NCBI RefSeq assembly: GCF_014639315.1
Contig: NZ_BMFY01000005.1
Span: 124,001-188,000 of the forward strand
Source of the DNA: Sediminivirga luteola
Lineage (GTDB): Bacteria; Actinomycetota; Actinomycetes; Actinomycetales; Brevibacteriaceae
DNA length: 64,000 nt
Direction: 5' to 3'
Of the stretch, positions 1 through 47,897 are shown piece after piece. Each line of letters starts with the position of its first letter. The first letter of the stretch is position 1. The notes beneath the pieces were generated by a model. That model did not search any database and was not told the DNA's origin. It saw nothing but the letters and a program-made list of their open reading frames with translations. The position numbers and the translations under genes were made by a program.

Positions 1-2544
1 GTGATCGAGGAGATCCCGCCGGGCGAGCGGGTCGAGGTCCCGATCACCGTGATCGTCGACCCGGAGTACACCGGTGATGGCACGGACATCGTGAACCAGG
101 TCGAGGTGGACTCCCCGTCCTCCGAGCCCGTCATCTCCGAGCCGACCGACATCTCCGATGTCGTCGGAGACGGCTCCGCGGACCTGGCGTTGTACAAGAC
201 GCCGGTGACGAGCGAACCGGTCACCCCGGGCGAGACCTTCCAGTACGAGCTCCGGGTGGTCAACAATGGCCCGTCGCTGGCGGTGGGGATCGTCGTGACC
301 GACCAGCTGCCGGTGACGCTGTCTTTCGTCTCCTCCGAGGACTGCACCGGTCCCGGGGAGTACGGCGCGAGCGTGACCTGTGAGCTGGGCTCCCTCTCCG
401 TGGAGGAGGAGATCAGCGTCGTCATCGAGGTGCGGATCGATCCGTCCTACACCGGCGACGGTTCGGACATCGTCAACACCGCCACGGTCACGGCGGAGAC
501 GGAGGATCCGGATCTGTCCAACAACGAGGCACGGGCGGTCGTCCCCTCGGGCAGCACCGGCGACGCCGAGGCCGATGTCTCCCTGGAGAAGGCATTCGTC
601 ACGGACGGACAGGTGGCCCCGGGCCAGACCGTCAGCGTGGTCTTCACCGTGTCGAACGACGGGCCGTCCACCGCGCGCGGCATCGTGGTGACGGACGATC
701 TGCCGGCCGAACTGGCCTACATGTCCAGTGAGGACTGCACCGGCACTACCGCTCTGCTGGGCGGTACGATCACCTGCGCCCCGATCCCGTCGCTGGAGCC
801 CGGCCAGAGCGCCGAGCTCACCGCCGAGGTGCTGCTCGACCCGGCGTACCGCGGCGACGGCTCGGATGTGGTGAACAACGCGGTAGCCGAGCCGGCCACG
901 GCGGATCCCGATACGGACAACAACTTCGCCTCGGCCTCCCTGGAGGACGCGGTCGGCGAGTCGGACGCGGATCTGGAGATCGTCAAGACCGGGCCCGATG
1001 TCCTGGTGGCCAGTGGTCAGGTCGTCTACGAGATCGACGTGGTCAACCACGGACCGTCCCGCGCGACGGGCGTGGTGGTCACCGACGAGCTCGACGAGCG
1101 GCTGACCCTGATCAGCCAGGAGCCCGAGCTCTGCGATGCGGACGGCCAGTCCTTGACCTGTGACTTCCGTGAGATCGCGCCGGGTGGCACCCGGGGCGTG
1201 ACCCTCACAGTGGAGGTCTCGGACGAGGCCGGTCACGGCGACGAGATCGCCAACACCGCCGTGGTCGCAGCGGAGACGCCCGACAGCGATCTCAGCAACA
1301 ACGAGAGCACGACCGTCGGGACCGTGGTCGACCCGGATGCGACGGAGGTGGCGGATCTCGCCCTGACCAAGGAGTTCGCTGATGAGACGGCGGGCCCGAT
1401 CGCACCGGGGGAGACCTTCGGGTACATCATCACCGTGAGCAATCTCGGTCCTGGCGATGCGTCCGAGGTCACCATGGTGGACACCCTGCCGGCCGAGCTG
1501 AGCTACGTCTCGGCCGAGGGCGACGGCGTCCAGTGCGCTCCGCAGAACGGCACGGTCAGCTGTGACCTGGCCGAGTCCCTGCCAGCCGGCGAGGAACTCG
1601 AGCTGGTGCTGACGGTCCGCCTGGCTCCGGACTACGCCGGTGGCGAGGACGAGGCCATCGTGAACGAGGCCACCGTCAGCGCGGCCACGCCGGATCCGGA
1701 TCTGGCCAACAACACCGACACCGCCGAGGGCGTCCCCGGCGGCGTGGGCGAGCGGATCTCGGACCTGGCCATCACGGCTCAGGACGCCGAGGGGCCGGTC
1801 CCGCCCGGCTCGGAGACGACCATGACCTACGAGGTCGTCAACCTCGGGCCGAGCGCGGTGCCGGAGGGCGAGGCGACGGTGGAGATCACCATGCCGGAGG
1901 ATGTGCTGGCCCAGACCGGCGGACAGCCGGAAGGCTGCTCCGTCGCCGAGGACCGGCTCACGGTCACCTGCGTGGTCGACGAGCTGCTCTGGCCGGAGGA
2001 TGTGGACCTGCCGGAGGCCACTGCCGCAGCGGTCTCCGCAGACCCGGACCAGGTGCGCGCCTTCCAGGCCGTGCAGTCCTTCAGCCAGGTGATCGCGCTT
2101 GAGGTCGAGGCGGATGCCCCGGTGAACGCCACGCTGCCGGGCGGCACGGCGACGGTCTTCGACGAGGGAGACCCCGTCGAGGGCAACAACTCCGACACCT
2201 GGGTGGCGACCACGATCGGCGACGAGCCGACCGAGCCGACGCCCACTCCGACGGAACCGACGGAGCCCACGCCGACCCCGACGGAGCCGACGCCGCCGAC
2301 GGAGCCCACGCCCCCGACCCCGTCTCCGACGGAGCCGACGGAACCGTCCCCGACGACGGATCCGACGCAGCCGGGTCCCTCGCCGACGGCTCCTCCCGGT
2401 GATCCGGGCGACCCGGGCAAGCCGGCACCGGATCTGCCCCGGACAGGTGCGATGATCGCAGGGTTCCTTGCGGCCGGGATCGCGCTCCTGCTGGCTGGCC
2501 TGGCTATCATGGTGGTAGTCCGCCGGAGGAGGGACACGGTATGA
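1..2544 (+). CDS. DUF11-repeat cell-wall-anchored surface protein (5'-partial)
   Basis: This is the 3' part of a large surface protein. The first visible codon is GTG, but it lies inside the end of a DUF11 repeat, so the gene almost certainly begins upstream of the window. About five DUF11-type Ig-like repeats follow, each opening with a pattern like ADLALxK and carrying VTDxLP and DPDLSNN-like motifs. A Pro/Thr/Glu-rich wall-spanning linker (about 2221-2400) comes next. The C-terminus has an LPRTG sorting signal (residues 812-816 of the visible part), a hydrophobic helix and an RRRR tail. Sortase anchoring to peptidoglycan is expected from that layout. No sortase gene is in the window. The stop codon overlaps the frame of the next gene, so the two are probably co-transcribed. 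Adhesion or matrix function is inference only. Confidence 0.9.
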   Translation: MIEEIPPGERVEVPITVIVDPEYTGDGTDIVNQVEVDSPSSEPVISEPTDISDVVGDGSADLALYKTPVTSEPVTPGETFQYELRVVNNGPSLAVGIVVTDQLPVTLSFVSSEDCTGPGEYGASVTCELGSLSVEEEISVVIEVRIDPSYTGDGSDIVNTATVTAETEDPDLSNNEARAVVPSGSTGDAEADVSLEKAFVTDGQVAPGQTVSVVFTVSNDGPSTARGIVVTDDLPAELAYMSSEDCTGTTALLGGTITCAPIPSLEPGQSAELTAEVLLDPAYRGDGSDVVNNAVAEPATADPDTDNNFASASLEDAVGESDADLEIVKTGPDVLVASGQVVYEIDVVNHGPSRATGVVVTDELDERLTLISQEPELCDADGQSLTCDFREIAPGGTRGVTLTVEVSDEAGHGDEIANTAVVAAETPDSDLSNNESTTVGTVVDPDATEVADLALTKEFADETAGPIAPGETFGYIITVSNLGPGDASEVTMVDTLPAELSYVSAEGDGVQCAPQNGTVSCDLAESLPAGEELELVLTVRLAPDYAGGEDEAIVNEATVSAATPDPDLANNTDTAEGVPGGVGERISDLAITAQDAEGPVPPGSETTMTYEVVNLGPSAVPEGEATVEITMPEDVLAQTGGQPEGCSVAEDRLTVTCVVDELLWPEDVDLPEATAAAVSADPDQVRAFQAVQSFSQVIALEVEADAPVNATLPGGTATVFDEGDPVEGNNSDTWVATTIGDEPTEPTPTPTEPTEPTPTPTEPTPPTEPTPPTPSPTEPTEPSPTTDPTQPGPSPTAPPGDPGDPGKPAPDLPRTGAMIAGFLAAGIALLLAGLAIMVVVRRRRDTV

Positions 2545-43335: not shown

Positions 43336-44970
43336 GTGGTGACGACTCGTACAGTCACTGACGTGAGCACATGGACGAACCCCTCCGAGACCGGCATCCG
43401 CGCCCGTCTCGCCGCCGCCGGAGCGGTCTTGCTGACCGCTCTGAGCGCCGCCGTGCTCCCCTTCCCGGCAGCCCCCGCCGCCGCCCAGGGCGTCCCTCAG
43501 GCGGACCCGCTCGCCCCGCCGCACACCGTCGTCGTCCGCGGCGATGCGCGATTCGGCACCGGAGGCCAGATCAACGGCAGCCTCGCTGCCGGCGGCACCA
43601 TCTCCTTCGGCACCTTCGACCTGGGGCGTCCCGCGGACGGCACCGCGGTGCCCGCCGCCGACGGCCGCCCCACCCAGCTGCTGGCCGGCGGCCGCGTCGA
43701 CCTGTCTTCGGGCACCGTGTTCCGCACCAACGCCGGATACGCCGGCATCGCGGATATGAGCCGTTACACCCAGGTCCGCGACGGCCGCCTGCTCTCCGGG
43801 ACCGATCCGAACGGTCCGCACGTCTTCGTCCAGGGCGTCAGCCCCAGGCCGGCGACCCTTGCCGATTACCACTCCGAGGCGTTCGCGGCCCTGTACCCGG
43901 CAGCGTTCTTCGACGATGCGATCGCCACCGCGGCGCAGCTCGGGCAGCTGCCCGGCACCGTGCAGGCGCGTGCCGGCGGCGAGCTGCAGCTGACCCTGCA
44001 GCCGGACACCGTCAACGTCTGGACCGTCACCGCCCGGGAGCTCGCCGGCTACCATGCGGTCAACTTCGGCACCGTGAAACCCAGCGCGACCGCGCCCCTG
44101 ATCGTCAACGTGACCGACCCCGCCGGCACCGGCAACGTACTCGGCGGCTTGCGCTTCAACGGCGATGCCGCCGGCTTCTCGCCGTACGTCACCTGGAACC
44201 TCAGCGGCTGGAACCGGCTCAGCCTGGAAGGCGGCGCCGAGCTCTCCGGGCTCGTCCTGGCACCGCAGGCCGCCGTGACCTACCGGCTGGGCAGTAACCT
44301 GACCGGGCAGCTGATCGCCGATTCCTTCACGATGGAGGGCGGCCGCACCATCAACCATCGCCAGCACGTCGCCCCGGCGCTCGGCCGCGAGCCCGAACCG
44401 GCCACGCTGCGCCTGCGCGCGGAGGTCGAGAACGGCACGACCGGCACCGCGGCCCCGGCCGACTGGACGCTCCACGCCGAGGGCTCCGGTGGCGAGGTGC
44501 CCGGCAGCGGGGGAACGCTCGCCGTCGCCCCCGGGGGATATGCGCTCGATGGCCGCCTCACCTCCGGCAGCGGAGAGCCCGGCGACTATGTGCTCACCGG
44601 CGTCGCCTGCAGCGAGGACGGTGCCGGGCCGGTCCCAGTGCACGGGCAGCAGGTGGAGGTCGCCGAGGGCCAGACGCTCGACTGCGTTCTCCGCTACGCC
44701 CATCAGCGCCTCCAGATCGAGCTGCGCGGCTGGGACGTGCCCGCCCAGGAACCAGGTTCCCTGCCCCCGGCGGACACGGAGATCACCGAAGGGCAGCGCA
44801 TCCCGGACCGGACCGTCACCTGGACCTACACGGTCAGCAACACCGGTGCCACCACCATCGGCGGCATCCGGGTGACCGACGATACCGGCACGGGACCTCC
44901 CGCGTGCCCCGCCGACCGGCTCTGGCCGGGCGAGCGGATGATCTGCACCTCCAGCGGCCGGGCCGCCTGA
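43336..44970 (+). CDS. Choice-of-anchor A family secreted protein
   Basis: A 544-residue exported protein. Start is GTG 43336 (or 43339, 43363); GAGGTG lies before the first. A signal peptide ends near AAPAAAQG (about residue 50). The choice-of-anchor-A/collagen-binding-like domain follows: VVRGDARFGTGGQINGSLAAG, VFVQGVSP, VNFGTVKPSATAPLIVNVTD, then WNLSGWN and LSGLVLAPQAAVTYRLGSNLTGQ in part. The C-terminal third holds two beta-sandwich (SpaA/DUF11-like) segments. No LPxTG or transmembrane helix is present, so it may be released or held by partners. It is first in the SipW operon. Confidence 0.82.
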   Translation: MVTTRTVTDVSTWTNPSETGIRARLAAAGAVLLTALSAAVLPFPAAPAAAQGVPQADPLAPPHTVVVRGDARFGTGGQINGSLAAGGTISFGTFDLGRPADGTAVPAADGRPTQLLAGGRVDLSSGTVFRTNAGYAGIADMSRYTQVRDGRLLSGTDPNGPHVFVQGVSPRPATLADYHSEAFAALYPAAFFDDAIATAAQLGQLPGTVQARAGGELQLTLQPDTVNVWTVTARELAGYHAVNFGTVKPSATAPLIVNVTDPAGTGNVLGGLRFNGDAAGFSPYVTWNLSGWNRLSLEGGAELSGLVLAPQAAVTYRLGSNLTGQLIADSFTMEGGRTINHRQHVAPALGREPEPATLRLRAEVENGTTGTAAPADWTLHAEGSGGEVPGSGGTLAVAPGGYALDGRLTSGSGEPGDYVLTGVACSEDGAGPVPVHGQQVEVAEGQTLDCVLRYAHQRLQIELRGWDVPAQEPGSLPPADTEITEGQRIPDRTVTWTYTVSNTGATTIGGIRVTDDTGTGPPACPADRLWPGERMICTSSGRAA

Positions 44971-45046
44971 CCACCGATTCATGCACCATCCCGCACCCAC
45001 CGGCCGGCTGCCCAAAGCCGCCGGCGAACCCCAGAAGGAGACACAC

Positions 45047-45589
45047 ATGCGCAAGTCCACCGCCGGAATCATCGCCGGAGCCGGCCTGCTCGCCCTCGCC
45101 CTGACCGGCGGCACGTTCGCACTCTGGAGCGACGATGCCGAGGCCGACGGCGGCATCATCACCGCCGGAAACCTGCAGGTCACCACCGGTCAGCCGCAGT
45201 GGTACGACATCTCCGCCGGTACTGATAAGACCATCGACCTGAACTCCTTCCGCGCCGTGCCCGGTGACACCCTCCGCCTGGACCAGGACGTCGACGTCGT
45301 CCTGGTGGGTGACAACCTGAAGGCGCAGGCGGCGGTCGAGCTCCCCGACGCGGGCGGCGCCCTCGCGCAGCACCTCGACGTGACCTACGAGTTCCTCGAT
45401 GCGCAGGGCCGCAGCCTCGGCAGCGCCGAGGCCGGGCAGGCCATCGAGACTGAGATCACTCCCGCCGACGCCGGCACCTACACCGTCGAGGTGACCTTCC
45501 AGTTCGACGAGAACACCCCGGATCGCGTCGCCACCGAAGCTTCCGCCGCGATCGCCGGCACCACCATCACCCTGACCCAGGTGCGCTGA
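45047..45589 (+). CDS. SipW-dependent-type signal peptide protein (TasA/camelysin-like)
   Basis: A 180-residue exported protein. The start follows AGAAGGAG. Its leader MRKSTAGIIAGAGLLALALT and GGTFALWSDDA is the alternate-type signal peptide of TasA/camelysin-like SipW substrates. The mature part is all-beta (NLQVTTGQPQWYDIS, FRAVPGDTLRLDQDVDV, TITLTQVR). TasA-type proteins form extracellular fibres of biofilm matrix. A matching signal peptidase is encoded two genes downstream, which supports this assignment. Confidence 0.87.
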   Translation: MRKSTAGIIAGAGLLALALTGGTFALWSDDAEADGGIITAGNLQVTTGQPQWYDISAGTDKTIDLNSFRAVPGDTLRLDQDVDVVLVGDNLKAQAAVELPDAGGALAQHLDVTYEFLDAQGRSLGSAEAGQAIETEITPADAGTYTVEVTFQFDENTPDRVATEASAAIAGTTITLTQVR

Positions 45590-45787
45590 GCCGGCGTTCG
45601 CCGAAGACGCGGCGCCCGCGTAAGGCGCGCCGGGAGCAGCAACCGCCAGCGTGGAGGAGTCGTGCCGCAGAGGTGCCGAACGGCACCGGCGTAAGAGACC
45701 AGGACCATCACCTGCGCATCACGGGGCGCAGCGACCGCGGACCGCAGGGCGTGGCAACCCCGTACCACCGAGAGGAGGAAACCCGAG

Positions 45788-46588
45788 ATGAAGCATACGC
45801 GTACGGAACGCAGGCGCCGGTTCCGGTCCGCGCCCGTGGCCGGGCTGCTCATCGGCGCGGCTCTTCTCCTCGCGGCGGGCGGAGGCGTCACCTCCGCGCT
45901 GTGGGTCGACACCGCAGCATGGTCCGGGCTGATCACCCTCGGCCAGACGCGGTTCACCCTGGGAGAGGACGAGTCGCGTCAGACTCTGGAGACGTTCCCG
46001 GGCACGCTCGGGCAGGAGTACTCGGCGGACCTCCTGACCGGACTCCGGGCAGGGCAGCCGCAGGCCGTCGCGATCCCGGTCACGGGCCGGGCGGAGGGCA
46101 ACCGCGGCCTGGCCTACCGTGTGGAGAGCACTGGGGTGACGGGCGATCCGGCGCTGCTGGAAGCGGCCGCGCTGAGTTTCATCGCGGTCGACCAGCCCGG
46201 TGACTGCCATCCCGGCGGGGCGGGGGCGGCGCTGGGCGAGATCCCCGCCGGGAGCACCGCCCTGCGACGCGGCGACGACCGGGTCCTCGTTCCGGCCTCC
46301 GGCGAGGACACCGGCCACGGGTACCTGTGTGTCATCGCCACCGTCGAACAGGATCCCGTGACAGGCACGCACCGGCGGCACACGACCGTCACAGGAACGT
46401 CCGAGGACGTCCTCGCCGGGGACCCGGACGTGACCGCCGCCGACGAGTGGAGCCGGGACCTGGATCTGCCGGCCAGCGCACGCGAGGCCGTCCTGCGGGT
46501 GGACCTCCGGGTCTGGACCTTCCGGAACGACGATGCCGATGACGGCGGCTTGGCCGGCCGAGGCGGCGAACTGCGGACGGGCTCATGA
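45788..46588 (+). CDS. Second SipW-type signal peptide protein
   Basis: A 266-residue exported protein starting after GAGGAGG. An Arg-rich start is followed by VAGLLIGAALLLAAGGGVTSALWVDTA, here shown in parts: the GGGVTSALW end resembles the SipW-type signal. The mature part contains two cysteines (DCHPGG and YLCVIA) that could form a disulfide. It shares little visible sequence with the first substrate. Its stop overlaps the signal peptidase start (ATGA), so translation is coupled. Probably a minor subunit or assembly factor of the matrix system. Confidence 0.75.
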   Translation: MKHTRTERRRRFRSAPVAGLLIGAALLLAAGGGVTSALWVDTAAWSGLITLGQTRFTLGEDESRQTLETFPGTLGQEYSADLLTGLRAGQPQAVAIPVTGRAEGNRGLAYRVESTGVTGDPALLEAAALSFIAVDQPGDCHPGGAGAALGEIPAGSTALRRGDDRVLVPASGEDTGHGYLCVIATVEQDPVTGTHRRHTTVTGTSEDVLAGDPDVTAADEWSRDLDLPASAREAVLRVDLRVWTFRNDDADDGGLAGRGGELRTGS

Positions 46589-47130
46589 CAGCCCGGGAGG
46601 ACGACGGCCGGAGCCTGCTGCGGACCCTCCTCAATACCGTCCTCTGGAGTGTCCTGGTGGTCTTCCTGGCGGTCGTCGCGGCAGCCGTGCTGGTGCCGCG
46701 GCTGCTGGGCGGGACCGCCCTGACAGTGCTCAGCGGCTCGATGGAGCCCACCTACTCGCCCGGGGACATGATCGTCGTGGTGCCCGCCGGCGCGGAGGAG
46801 ATCCAGCTGGGCGATGTCATCAGCTTCCACCCCTACCCGGACGATCCGGCCCTGGTGACCCACCGGGTGATCGCCGTCCAGACCGACGGCACGGGGGAAC
46901 TCTCCCTGGTCACTCAGGGAGACGCCAATTCCTCCGCGGATGAGCCGATCCGCGGCGAGCAGATCGCCGGGAAGGTGCTCTACGACCTTCCCGCCCTCGG
47001 ATTCCTGGCCGAGGCCATGCGCGGGGACAGCGCCCGGACCCTGGCGATCTGGGCCGGCGGGGCGCTGCTGATCCTAGGACTGACCGGCACGGCGCTGCGC
47101 TGGCTGCGCCGCGCGAAGGCGGGGACATGA
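46585..47130 (+). CDS. sipW: Signal peptidase I, ER/SipW type
   Basis: A 181-residue membrane protease with one N-terminal and one C-terminal transmembrane helix. The catalytic serine is Ser52 in LSGSMEPTYSPGD. The second catalytic residue is His93 in VTHRVIAV, not lysine, and Asp113 lies in TQGDANSS; this Ser-His-Asp set marks the archaeal/ER/SipW type. It should cleave the alternate signal peptides of the two upstream products. It overlaps both neighbours by 4 bp, so it is made in step with its substrates. Confidence 0.92.
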   Translation: MTAREDDGRSLLRTLLNTVLWSVLVVFLAVVAAAVLVPRLLGGTALTVLSGSMEPTYSPGDMIVVVPAGAEEIQLGDVISFHPYPDDPALVTHRVIAVQTDGTGELSLVTQGDANSSADEPIRGEQIAGKVLYDLPALGFLAEAMRGDSARTLAIWAGGALLILGLTGTALRWLRRAKAGT

Positions 47131-47897
47131 GAGCACTCGGCGCGACTCTGCTTCCGGTGCTGCTGGCGGTGGCGCTGCTGACCGGGGCGGTCCCGGTCGC
47201 GGCCACCGGGAACGCCCCGCACGACAGCGCTGCGGCATCTGCCGGAGCCGCCGCCGGTGGCGCGGCCATCGCGGACGAGAGCGCCGTCCAGCACATCGGC
47301 CTGACCTACGACGGTTTCCATGCCGAGGAGGCCACGGTGCCGTTCCCGCCGGCCGTCGTGGTTCCCGGCGACGCCGACGAGCGAATCCTCCGGGTGGAGA
47401 ACCTGGGCGATCTGCCCGGGCAGCTGACCGCGCAGATCGTCGGGGTCCGGTTCAGCACCGATGCCGTCCACGAGTTCTACCGGGAACTGCGGATCAACGG
47501 GATCCCCGCCGTCGAGCTGTACCACCGGGAAACCGTGGTCCGCAGCCAGGTGCTCACACCGGGAGAGACGACCGACATCCCGGTGCGTTATGACTTCCCG
47601 GTCGACTCCACCGGCGGGAACAGCGACCAGCATCCTTCCGTGGCCTTCGACGTGCGGCTGACGCTGGACGCGCTGCTGCCAGGCAGCGGCGGGGAGGGCC
47701 CGACGGCACCCGCAGGCGAGGGAGCCGCCGCCACGACCGGAGGCAACGCCGATGTCCCAGTTGCGGCCGGGACCGTCCGGCTGCCCCGGGAGCTTCCCTT
47801 CACCGGCGTTGACCTGCCCGTGCTGCTGGCGCTGGCCGCCCTGGCCCTGGCGGCGGGCTCGGTGCTGTCCGCCGTCGTGCGCCGGCGACGCCGCTGA
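47127..47897 (+). CDS. LPxTG-anchored exported protein
   Basis: A 256-residue surface protein. A signal peptide (LGATLLPVLLAVALLTGAVP) is followed by an Ala/Gly linker and one beta-sandwich domain: VPFPPAVVVPGDADERILRV, LYHRETVVRSQVL, ending VAFDVRLTLDALL. The C-terminus has LPFTG (in RELPFTGVD), a hydrophobic helix and an RRRRR tail, a sortase sorting signal. It may anchor the fibre or matrix proteins to the wall. It is translationally coupled to SipW. A 27-bp tandem repeat begins at its last codons. Confidence 0.85.
   Translation: MRALGATLLPVLLAVALLTGAVPVAATGNAPHDSAAASAGAAAGGAAIADESAVQHIGLTYDGFHAEEATVPFPPAVVVPGDADERILRVENLGDLPGQLTAQIVGVRFSTDAVHEFYRELRINGIPAVELYHRETVVRSQVLTPGETTDIPVRYDFPVDSTGGNSDQHPSVAFDVRLTLDALLPGSGGEGPTAPAGEGAAATTGGNADVPVAAGTVRLPRELPFTGVDLPVLLALAALALAAGSVLSAVVRRRRR

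Follow-up and report, generated by a model that had tools for sequence, protein, structure and literature searches.

A conserved SipW operon of Sediminivirga luteola predicted to encode a wall-anchored fibre with an adhesive tip

The subject of this report is an operon in a 64,000-nucleotide stretch of the Sediminivirga luteola genome (contig NZ_BMFY01000005.1, positions 124,001 to 188,000; hereafter the window). Its five genes, all on the plus strand at 43336-47897, code for an adhesin-like protein (gene 1, the tip protein), two SipW-type substrates (gene 2, subunit A; gene 3, subunit C), the signal peptidase SipW (gene 4) and a protein with an LPFTG sorting signal (gene 5, the anchor). We propose that the product of the operon is probably a non-covalent fibre of the TasA type, anchored to the cell wall and bearing a separate adhesive tip. 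The main clue to the system is a conserved stop within the last immunoglobulin (Ig)-like domain of the tip protein, a feature absent from a first-pass annotation of the window. That annotation had named a choice-of-anchor-A protein, two SipW-type substrates, a dedicated Ser-His-Asp signal peptidase and an LPFTG wall anchor, and domain matches, SipW motifs and the LPFTG tail located all five parts close to where it had placed them.

The tip protein and its shortened last domain

The tip protein carries an adhesive domain of the choice-of-anchor-A or ice-binding-like type at residues 64-340 (TIGR04215 choice_anch_A, E 1.8e-27, 96.7 bits with a cut-off of 29; PF20597 pAdhesive_15, E 1.4e-38), and its C-terminal DUF7507 match reaches only position 72-73 of 105. 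Other tips behave in the same way: their DUF7507 matches end within positions 58-79 of 105, where the protein itself ends or nearly so, and commonly finish with C-x-A-S-G and a few further residues. A profile of the last domain matched the C terminus of the tip in 23 named loci, representing 12 genera plus two Propionibacteriaceae metagenome genomes; 0-12 residues follow the match. When the tip-domain profile was applied to 20 further loci drawn at random from the order, a tip stood directly before A in 8/20, again with few residues (1-12) beyond the terminal domain; two of these eight are genomes already seen, and six were not in the set from which the profile had been built. Across loci the tip lies 28-110 bases ahead of A.

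Full-length DUF7507 copies in relatives, by contrast, run about 25 residues longer and include a conserved strand. Among the DUF7507 matches listed for 59 relatives nearly all reach position 86 or beyond, the tip of the window being one of about seven exceptions. Because the tip stops at a conserved point beyond which full-length copies continue, the final strand of its DUF7507 domain is absent in a conserved fashion. A frameshift was ruled out as the source of the early stop, which is conserved across genera. In L043, a multi-repeat protein with no link to such a locus, the same domain is internal and not terminal. The best AlphaFold model of the last 200 residues of the tip protein (pLDDT 88.6) ends with a strand at residues 190-198.

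The tip protein ends in this truncated domain and has neither an LPXTG motif nor a C-terminal transmembrane stretch. The family name of TIGR04215 presumably implies a C-terminal surface anchor, which the tip protein of the window lacks. Elsewhere the tip position is filled mostly by proteins with VWA domains, and otherwise by SpaA, CshA-type or SdrD/TIG domains. Since the choice-of-anchor domain occupies the place of these domains, the tip is a slot for exchangeable adhesins, with the choice-of-anchor domain as one option. The choice-of-anchor part named by the first-pass annotation is present as an exchangeable module without an anchor of its own, whereas as a defining part of the system it was rejected, relatives of the locus mostly carrying VWA tips. 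Among 46 sampled genomes with choice-of-anchor A above the cut-off, only that of the window and one other have the domain close to a listed SipW gene (about 10 kb or less); the protein of that other genome bears its own LPVTG motif.

The second tip-like protein encoded by Cellulomonas sp. KH9 combines a CshA_NR2 adhesin domain with the same truncated ending (L099:13070-15346). Another tip type, ending in C-x-x-L-x-P-x-DTT, is found upstream of substrates and SipW in L085, L118, L121, L123 and L057; the two tested (L085 and L123) gave no Pfam match.

Subunits A and C and their cleavage sites

Gene 2 matches TIGR04089 (E 4.7e-29) and TIGR04088 (E 1.7e-6) above the family cut-off. Its start is the ATG at 45047, with AGAAGGAG upstream of it; a start at 44981 is incorrect. 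Gene 3 matched no library family. Profiles built from relatives, with the window excluded, recovered A (3e-45), C (E 4.6e-23) and the anchor (E 7.8e-22), so that gene 3 now has a family. The possibility that gene 3, having no library match, is not a substrate of SipW was rejected on the basis of this family profile. Together with the SALWVD motif of C, these matches uphold the assignment of both proteins as SipW-type substrates. C and A are alike in the signal and early mature region (hhalign 93%).

An aromatic P2' residue is present in every listed protein (14 A, 12 B and 14 C, B being a subunit found in relatives), and the site is nearly always A/LW after a hydrophobic stretch, the slash marking the predicted cut. 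In Bacillus, SipW cleaves TasA at TWA/AFND, and the residues around this site make TasA a poor substrate for the ordinary signal peptidase (PMC10269814). By analogy with TasA, A/LW is the predicted cleavage point in A, B and C. No sorting signal was found in A, C or the tip protein, and the tip protein and the anchor seem, as judged by eye, to have ordinary Sec signals.

SipW, the wall anchor and sortases

Ser52, His93 and Asp113 of SipW are invariant in both SipW protein alignments, which agrees with a Ser-His-Asp and not a Ser-Lys peptidase. Gene 5 ends in LPFTG, a hydrophobic stretch and RRRRR, as expected for the wall anchor named in the first-pass annotation (Gram_pos_anchor, 20.0 bits with a cut-off of 20), and the T-G of the sorting motif is invariant in 16 sequences. 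An open reading frame (ORF) with a sorting signal lies within 2.5 kb of SipW and on the same strand in 29/60 named loci and in 16/30 loci of the class, at least three of these 16 being other membrane proteins or lying inside SipW itself. Even so, LPXTG-type ORFs are well enriched beside SipW in comparison with the remainder of the loci (Fisher p 5e-4 and 1.5e-5). In two loci SipW and an LPXTG-type anchor are fused in one ORF (L039:9307-10545, 412 aa; L056:8609-9796, 395 aa), a fusion that speaks for their being functionally linked. An iterative search merged the anchor with the substrates; as comparison of the profiles gave only 14% (hhalign), homology is not claimed.

The genome (3.86 Mb in 45 contigs) has two sortase matches, on contigs C17 and C10, and none within the operon. 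Because both sortase genes lie elsewhere, the system is not the self-contained module that it had been taken for.

Three more SipW loci are present in the same genome. On contigs C30 (L023) and C7 (L024) an LPXTG-type protein directly follows SipW, with the motifs LAVTG and LPRTG, respectively, and on C30 a LuxR-type regulator is located upstream. The locus on C19 (L022) has no LPXTG-type protein and adjoins transposase-like genes.

Occurrence of the locus in other actinobacteria

The first-pass annotation had proposed a gene-neighbourhood survey as a check. Scanning named genomes with the SipW alignment yielded 79 loci, and many of them share the order tip-A-SipW-B-C-LPXTG anchor, which was found in Paeniglutamicibacter, Frigoribacterium, Brevibacterium, Georgenia, Oceanitalea, Ruania, Microbacterium, Leucobacter, Nesterenkonia and Cellulomonas. 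The source genus is distinct from Brevibacterium, with which it shares the family. In three relatives (G038, G045 and G050) the position of the choice-of-anchor protein within a similar operon is taken by a VWA-type protein. As the gene set recurs across many genera, its association is more than chance.

Subunit A was found in 68/396 sampled genomes of the order (37/110 genera), and TIGR04089 in 39/395 sampled genomes of the class. Tip-bearing loci occur in 12 or more other named genera, and the system is not peculiar to this actinomycete.

Another layout was seen in another family (L058, L059 and L061), where three TasA-like substrates and, oriented divergently from them, an LAxTG protein are found together with SipW and a two-component system on the side of the latter. 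The choice-of-anchor-A protein additionally encoded at L058 bears an LPVTG motif itself.

Predicted fold of subunit A

An AlphaFold model of A, built with 23 sequences, is a beta sandwich with a pLDDT of 81.7; from residue 41 onwards most positions exceed 90, and residues 1-34 are without structure in the model. A Foldseek search of the PDB matched it to TasA in its fibre form (8aur; prob 1.00, TMq 0.47, E 0.002). The first 50 matches also include the Pyrobaculum bundling pili 7ueg (0.99), the Sulfolobus thread 7pnb (0.97), FimG 5iqm (1.00), CsuA/B and FimA, with unrelated beta proteins interspersed among them. The predicted fold thus resembles that of donor-strand fibre subunits such as TasA, archaeal pili and FimG with modest scores, which we take as support rather than proof.

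Operon layout and putative regulators

The order in the window is tip-A-C-SipW-anchor, B being missing. Genes 3/4 and 4/5 overlap by the four bases ATGA, which suggests that translation of these pairs is coupled. Gaps of 76 and 198 bases precede genes 2 and 3, respectively. The latter gap (45590-45787), between A and C, is unusually long for this operon; a search of it for a terminator or attenuator revealed none and no strong fold (fold z-score -0.7). A sigma-70 promoter was looked for and none was found.

Two large LuxR-type regulators are encoded upstream, the second of which stops 153 bases ahead of gene 1. Similar LuxR proteins of about 900 aa also adjoin six named tip-bearing loci (L066, L067, L076, L103, L104 and L106). 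Large LuxR proteins neighbour the locus in Brevibacterium, Frigoribacterium, Leucobacter and Nesterenkonia, and because of this recurrence in other genera the upstream pair of the window probably controls expression of the operon.

The window opens (1-2544, plus strand) with the 3' part of a frame of 4909 aa that carries DUF11-type repeats and an LPXTG-type anchor; the start of this giant surface protein lies outside the window, on its upstream side.

Table 1. Operon genes, the truncated domain and upstream regulator genes in the window
Feature	Coordinates	Strand	Remarks
Tip adhesin, gene 1, 544 aa	43336..44970	+	Sec signal; adhesive domain 64-340, SpaA_2 354-451, DUF7507 490-544
Truncated C-terminal Ig-like domain, proposed donor-strand acceptor	44695..44970	+	Stop follows ICTSSGRAA
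Subunit A, SipW substrate (TIGR04089), predicted to be the main fibre subunit	45047..45589	+	Predicted cleavage TFA/LWSD
Subunit C, second SipW substrate, 266 aa	45788..46588	+	Predicted cleavage TSA/LWVD; motif SALWVD
SipW, ER/archaeal-type signal peptidase I	46585..47130	+	TIGR02228 E 6.7e-28; overlaps C by 4 bases
LPFTG protein, predicted fibre base	47127..47897	+	Gram_pos_anchor; relatives' profile E 7.8e-22; overlaps SipW by 4 bases
LuxR-type (GerE) ATPase-like regulator, 913 aa	37835..40576	+	GerE E 4e-15; AAA_16 weak
Second large LuxR-type regulator, 869 aa	40573..43182	+	GerE E 1.9e-10; overlaps first

Proposed assembly and alternative explanations

TasA fibres assemble as each subunit is completed by the N-terminal strand of its neighbour (PMC9674648); the N terminus of TapA is donated likewise (PMC10151520). 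Taking into account these precedents and the features described above, we propose that SipW frees A and C of their signal peptides by cutting at A/LW, where the aromatic P2' residue is of the type known to hinder the ordinary signal peptidase. A would then be the main shaft subunit, whose freed N-terminal strand completes a neighbouring subunit by donor-strand exchange. The strand-lacking Ig-like domain of the tip protein would take the N-terminal strand of an A subunit; unable to close its own fold and accepting a strand of A, the tip would sit at one end of the fibre, as FimH does. C and the LPFTG protein may form the base, the simplest order being tip, repeated A and finally C, the LPFTG base or both. 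One of the two sortases on other contigs would join the LPFTG protein to the wall. A wall-tethered, SipW-dependent fibre, as suggested by the first-pass annotation, is the best reading of the conserved locus, the cleavage motif and the TasA/FimG-like predicted fold of A; the fibres themselves we infer.

Several observations weigh against this proposal. The five models of the tip disagree (pLDDT 88.6 down to 63.5), and Foldseek matches to the tip model are weak, the first ones being Gram-positive pilins. None of the Foldseek matches to A has E<0.001 and their TM-scores are below 0.5; in a sequence-profile search of the PDB neither A nor the anchor matched TasA, and with 14% in hhalign a TasA fold is not demonstrated for the anchor. 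Many SipW loci are without a tip or without an LPXTG gene.

A and SipW occurring without a tip in many loci would also fit an alternative in which the operon yields SipW-processed surface or matrix proteins of the TasA or camelysin kind and no tipped fibre, the gene 1 adhesin being secreted independently and the LPFTG protein being separate. Camelysin-type proteins of Bacillus cereus do act in the matrix (PMC13082335). However, an unrelated secreted adhesin would leave both the conserved truncation point and the fixed distance of 28-110 bases ahead of A unexplained, and nothing in the gene 1 protein itself would anchor it at the surface. We therefore regard this explanation as unlikely, though the strongest of the competitors.

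Less probable again is that the short last domain of the tip is a complete, smaller Ig variant and that the tip joins a real fibre via another surface, accepting no strand. Domain boundaries do vary in DUF11-type families, and the single-chain AlphaFold model of the truncated domain is fairly confident; yet the additional 25 or so residues of full-length DUF7507 in relatives hold a conserved strand, which nearly all library matches in relatives include. A sortase-polymerised pilus, with SpaA-like and LPXTG proteins covalently linked and SipW merely trimming accessory subunits, would accord with the LPXTG protein and with the VWA and SpaA domains of tips, which are typical of sortase-pilus tip proteins, but we consider it very improbable because A, C and the tip lack a sorting signal, the two sortases lie on other contigs, and the A fold resembles donor-strand pilins rather than SpaA shafts.

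Returning to the tipped, strand-exchanged fibre, we put at about even the chances that these loci define a widespread, undescribed class of actinobacterial pili: TasA-like subunits released by SipW and joined non-covalently by donor strands, capped by exchangeable adhesins on a strand-lacking Ig domain and fixed by sortase only at the base, a Gram-positive counterpart of FimH pili that evolved separately. No description of the locus or of its combination of parts was found in the literature searched, which excluded preprints and most subscription papers, and the locus appears undescribed. TasA fibres are known as scaffolds of the biofilm matrix. If our proposal is correct, a large share of the actinobacteria would also use the TasA assembly principle to build adhesin-tipped pili anchored to the wall, the main subunit being present in 17% of the sampled genomes and a third of the sampled genera of the order. 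The missing last strand would then provide a simple, testable rule for spotting tip proteins in unannotated genomes, and roles would be assigned to the C-subunit family, the anchor family and the terminal DUF7507 domain, which are now without function.

Comparison with known systems

The tapA-sipW-tasA operon of Bacillus subtilis likewise combines a dedicated ER-type signal peptidase with co-encoded substrates, and A shares with TasA the aromatic P2' site; the predicted fold of A is TasA-like with modest scores, and an N-terminal donor strand is proposed for it. What sets the operon of the window apart is a separate tip with a truncated Ig domain, an extra subunit C (accompanied by B in relatives) and an LPXTG base; among the operon proteins none matched the TapA (YqxM) family. 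In Clostridium perfringens the sipW-bsaABCRSD operon also brings together SipW-dependent subunits, which form BsaA polymers, accessory secreted proteins and regulators; BsaA has no LPXTG motif, however, its polymers are mostly outside the cell, no adhesin tip is described, and the neighbouring srtB is dispensable for the pellicle (PMC7395162). The TasA/CalY/CapP filaments of Bacillus cereus resemble the proposed fibre in their two TasA-type subunits and a cell-wall-associated accessory protein. CapP, by contrast, is chaperone-like and bound to the wall via its C-domain rather than forming an LPXTG base, and no tip adhesin is described (PMC13082335).

With sortase-assembled pili the system has in common the tip domain types (VWA, SpaA/CnaB) and LPXTG wall anchoring, whereas its shaft subunits are without a sorting signal and the operon is without a pilus-type sortase. 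Proteins of the window belong to TIGR04089/TIGR04088 and TIGR04215 of NCBIfam above cut-off; these are protein families and not descriptions of a locus. Chaperone-usher pili such as type 1 pili differ most visibly in architecture: the window system has no chaperone or usher, belongs to a single membrane and is anchored to the wall, and no sequence relationship was found. FimH nevertheless consists of an adhesive head and an Ig-like domain without one strand, as the tip of a fibre needs, and our proposal assigns the same two-part design to the actinobacterial tip adhesin, the missing strand of whose Ig-like domain would be supplied by the next subunit.

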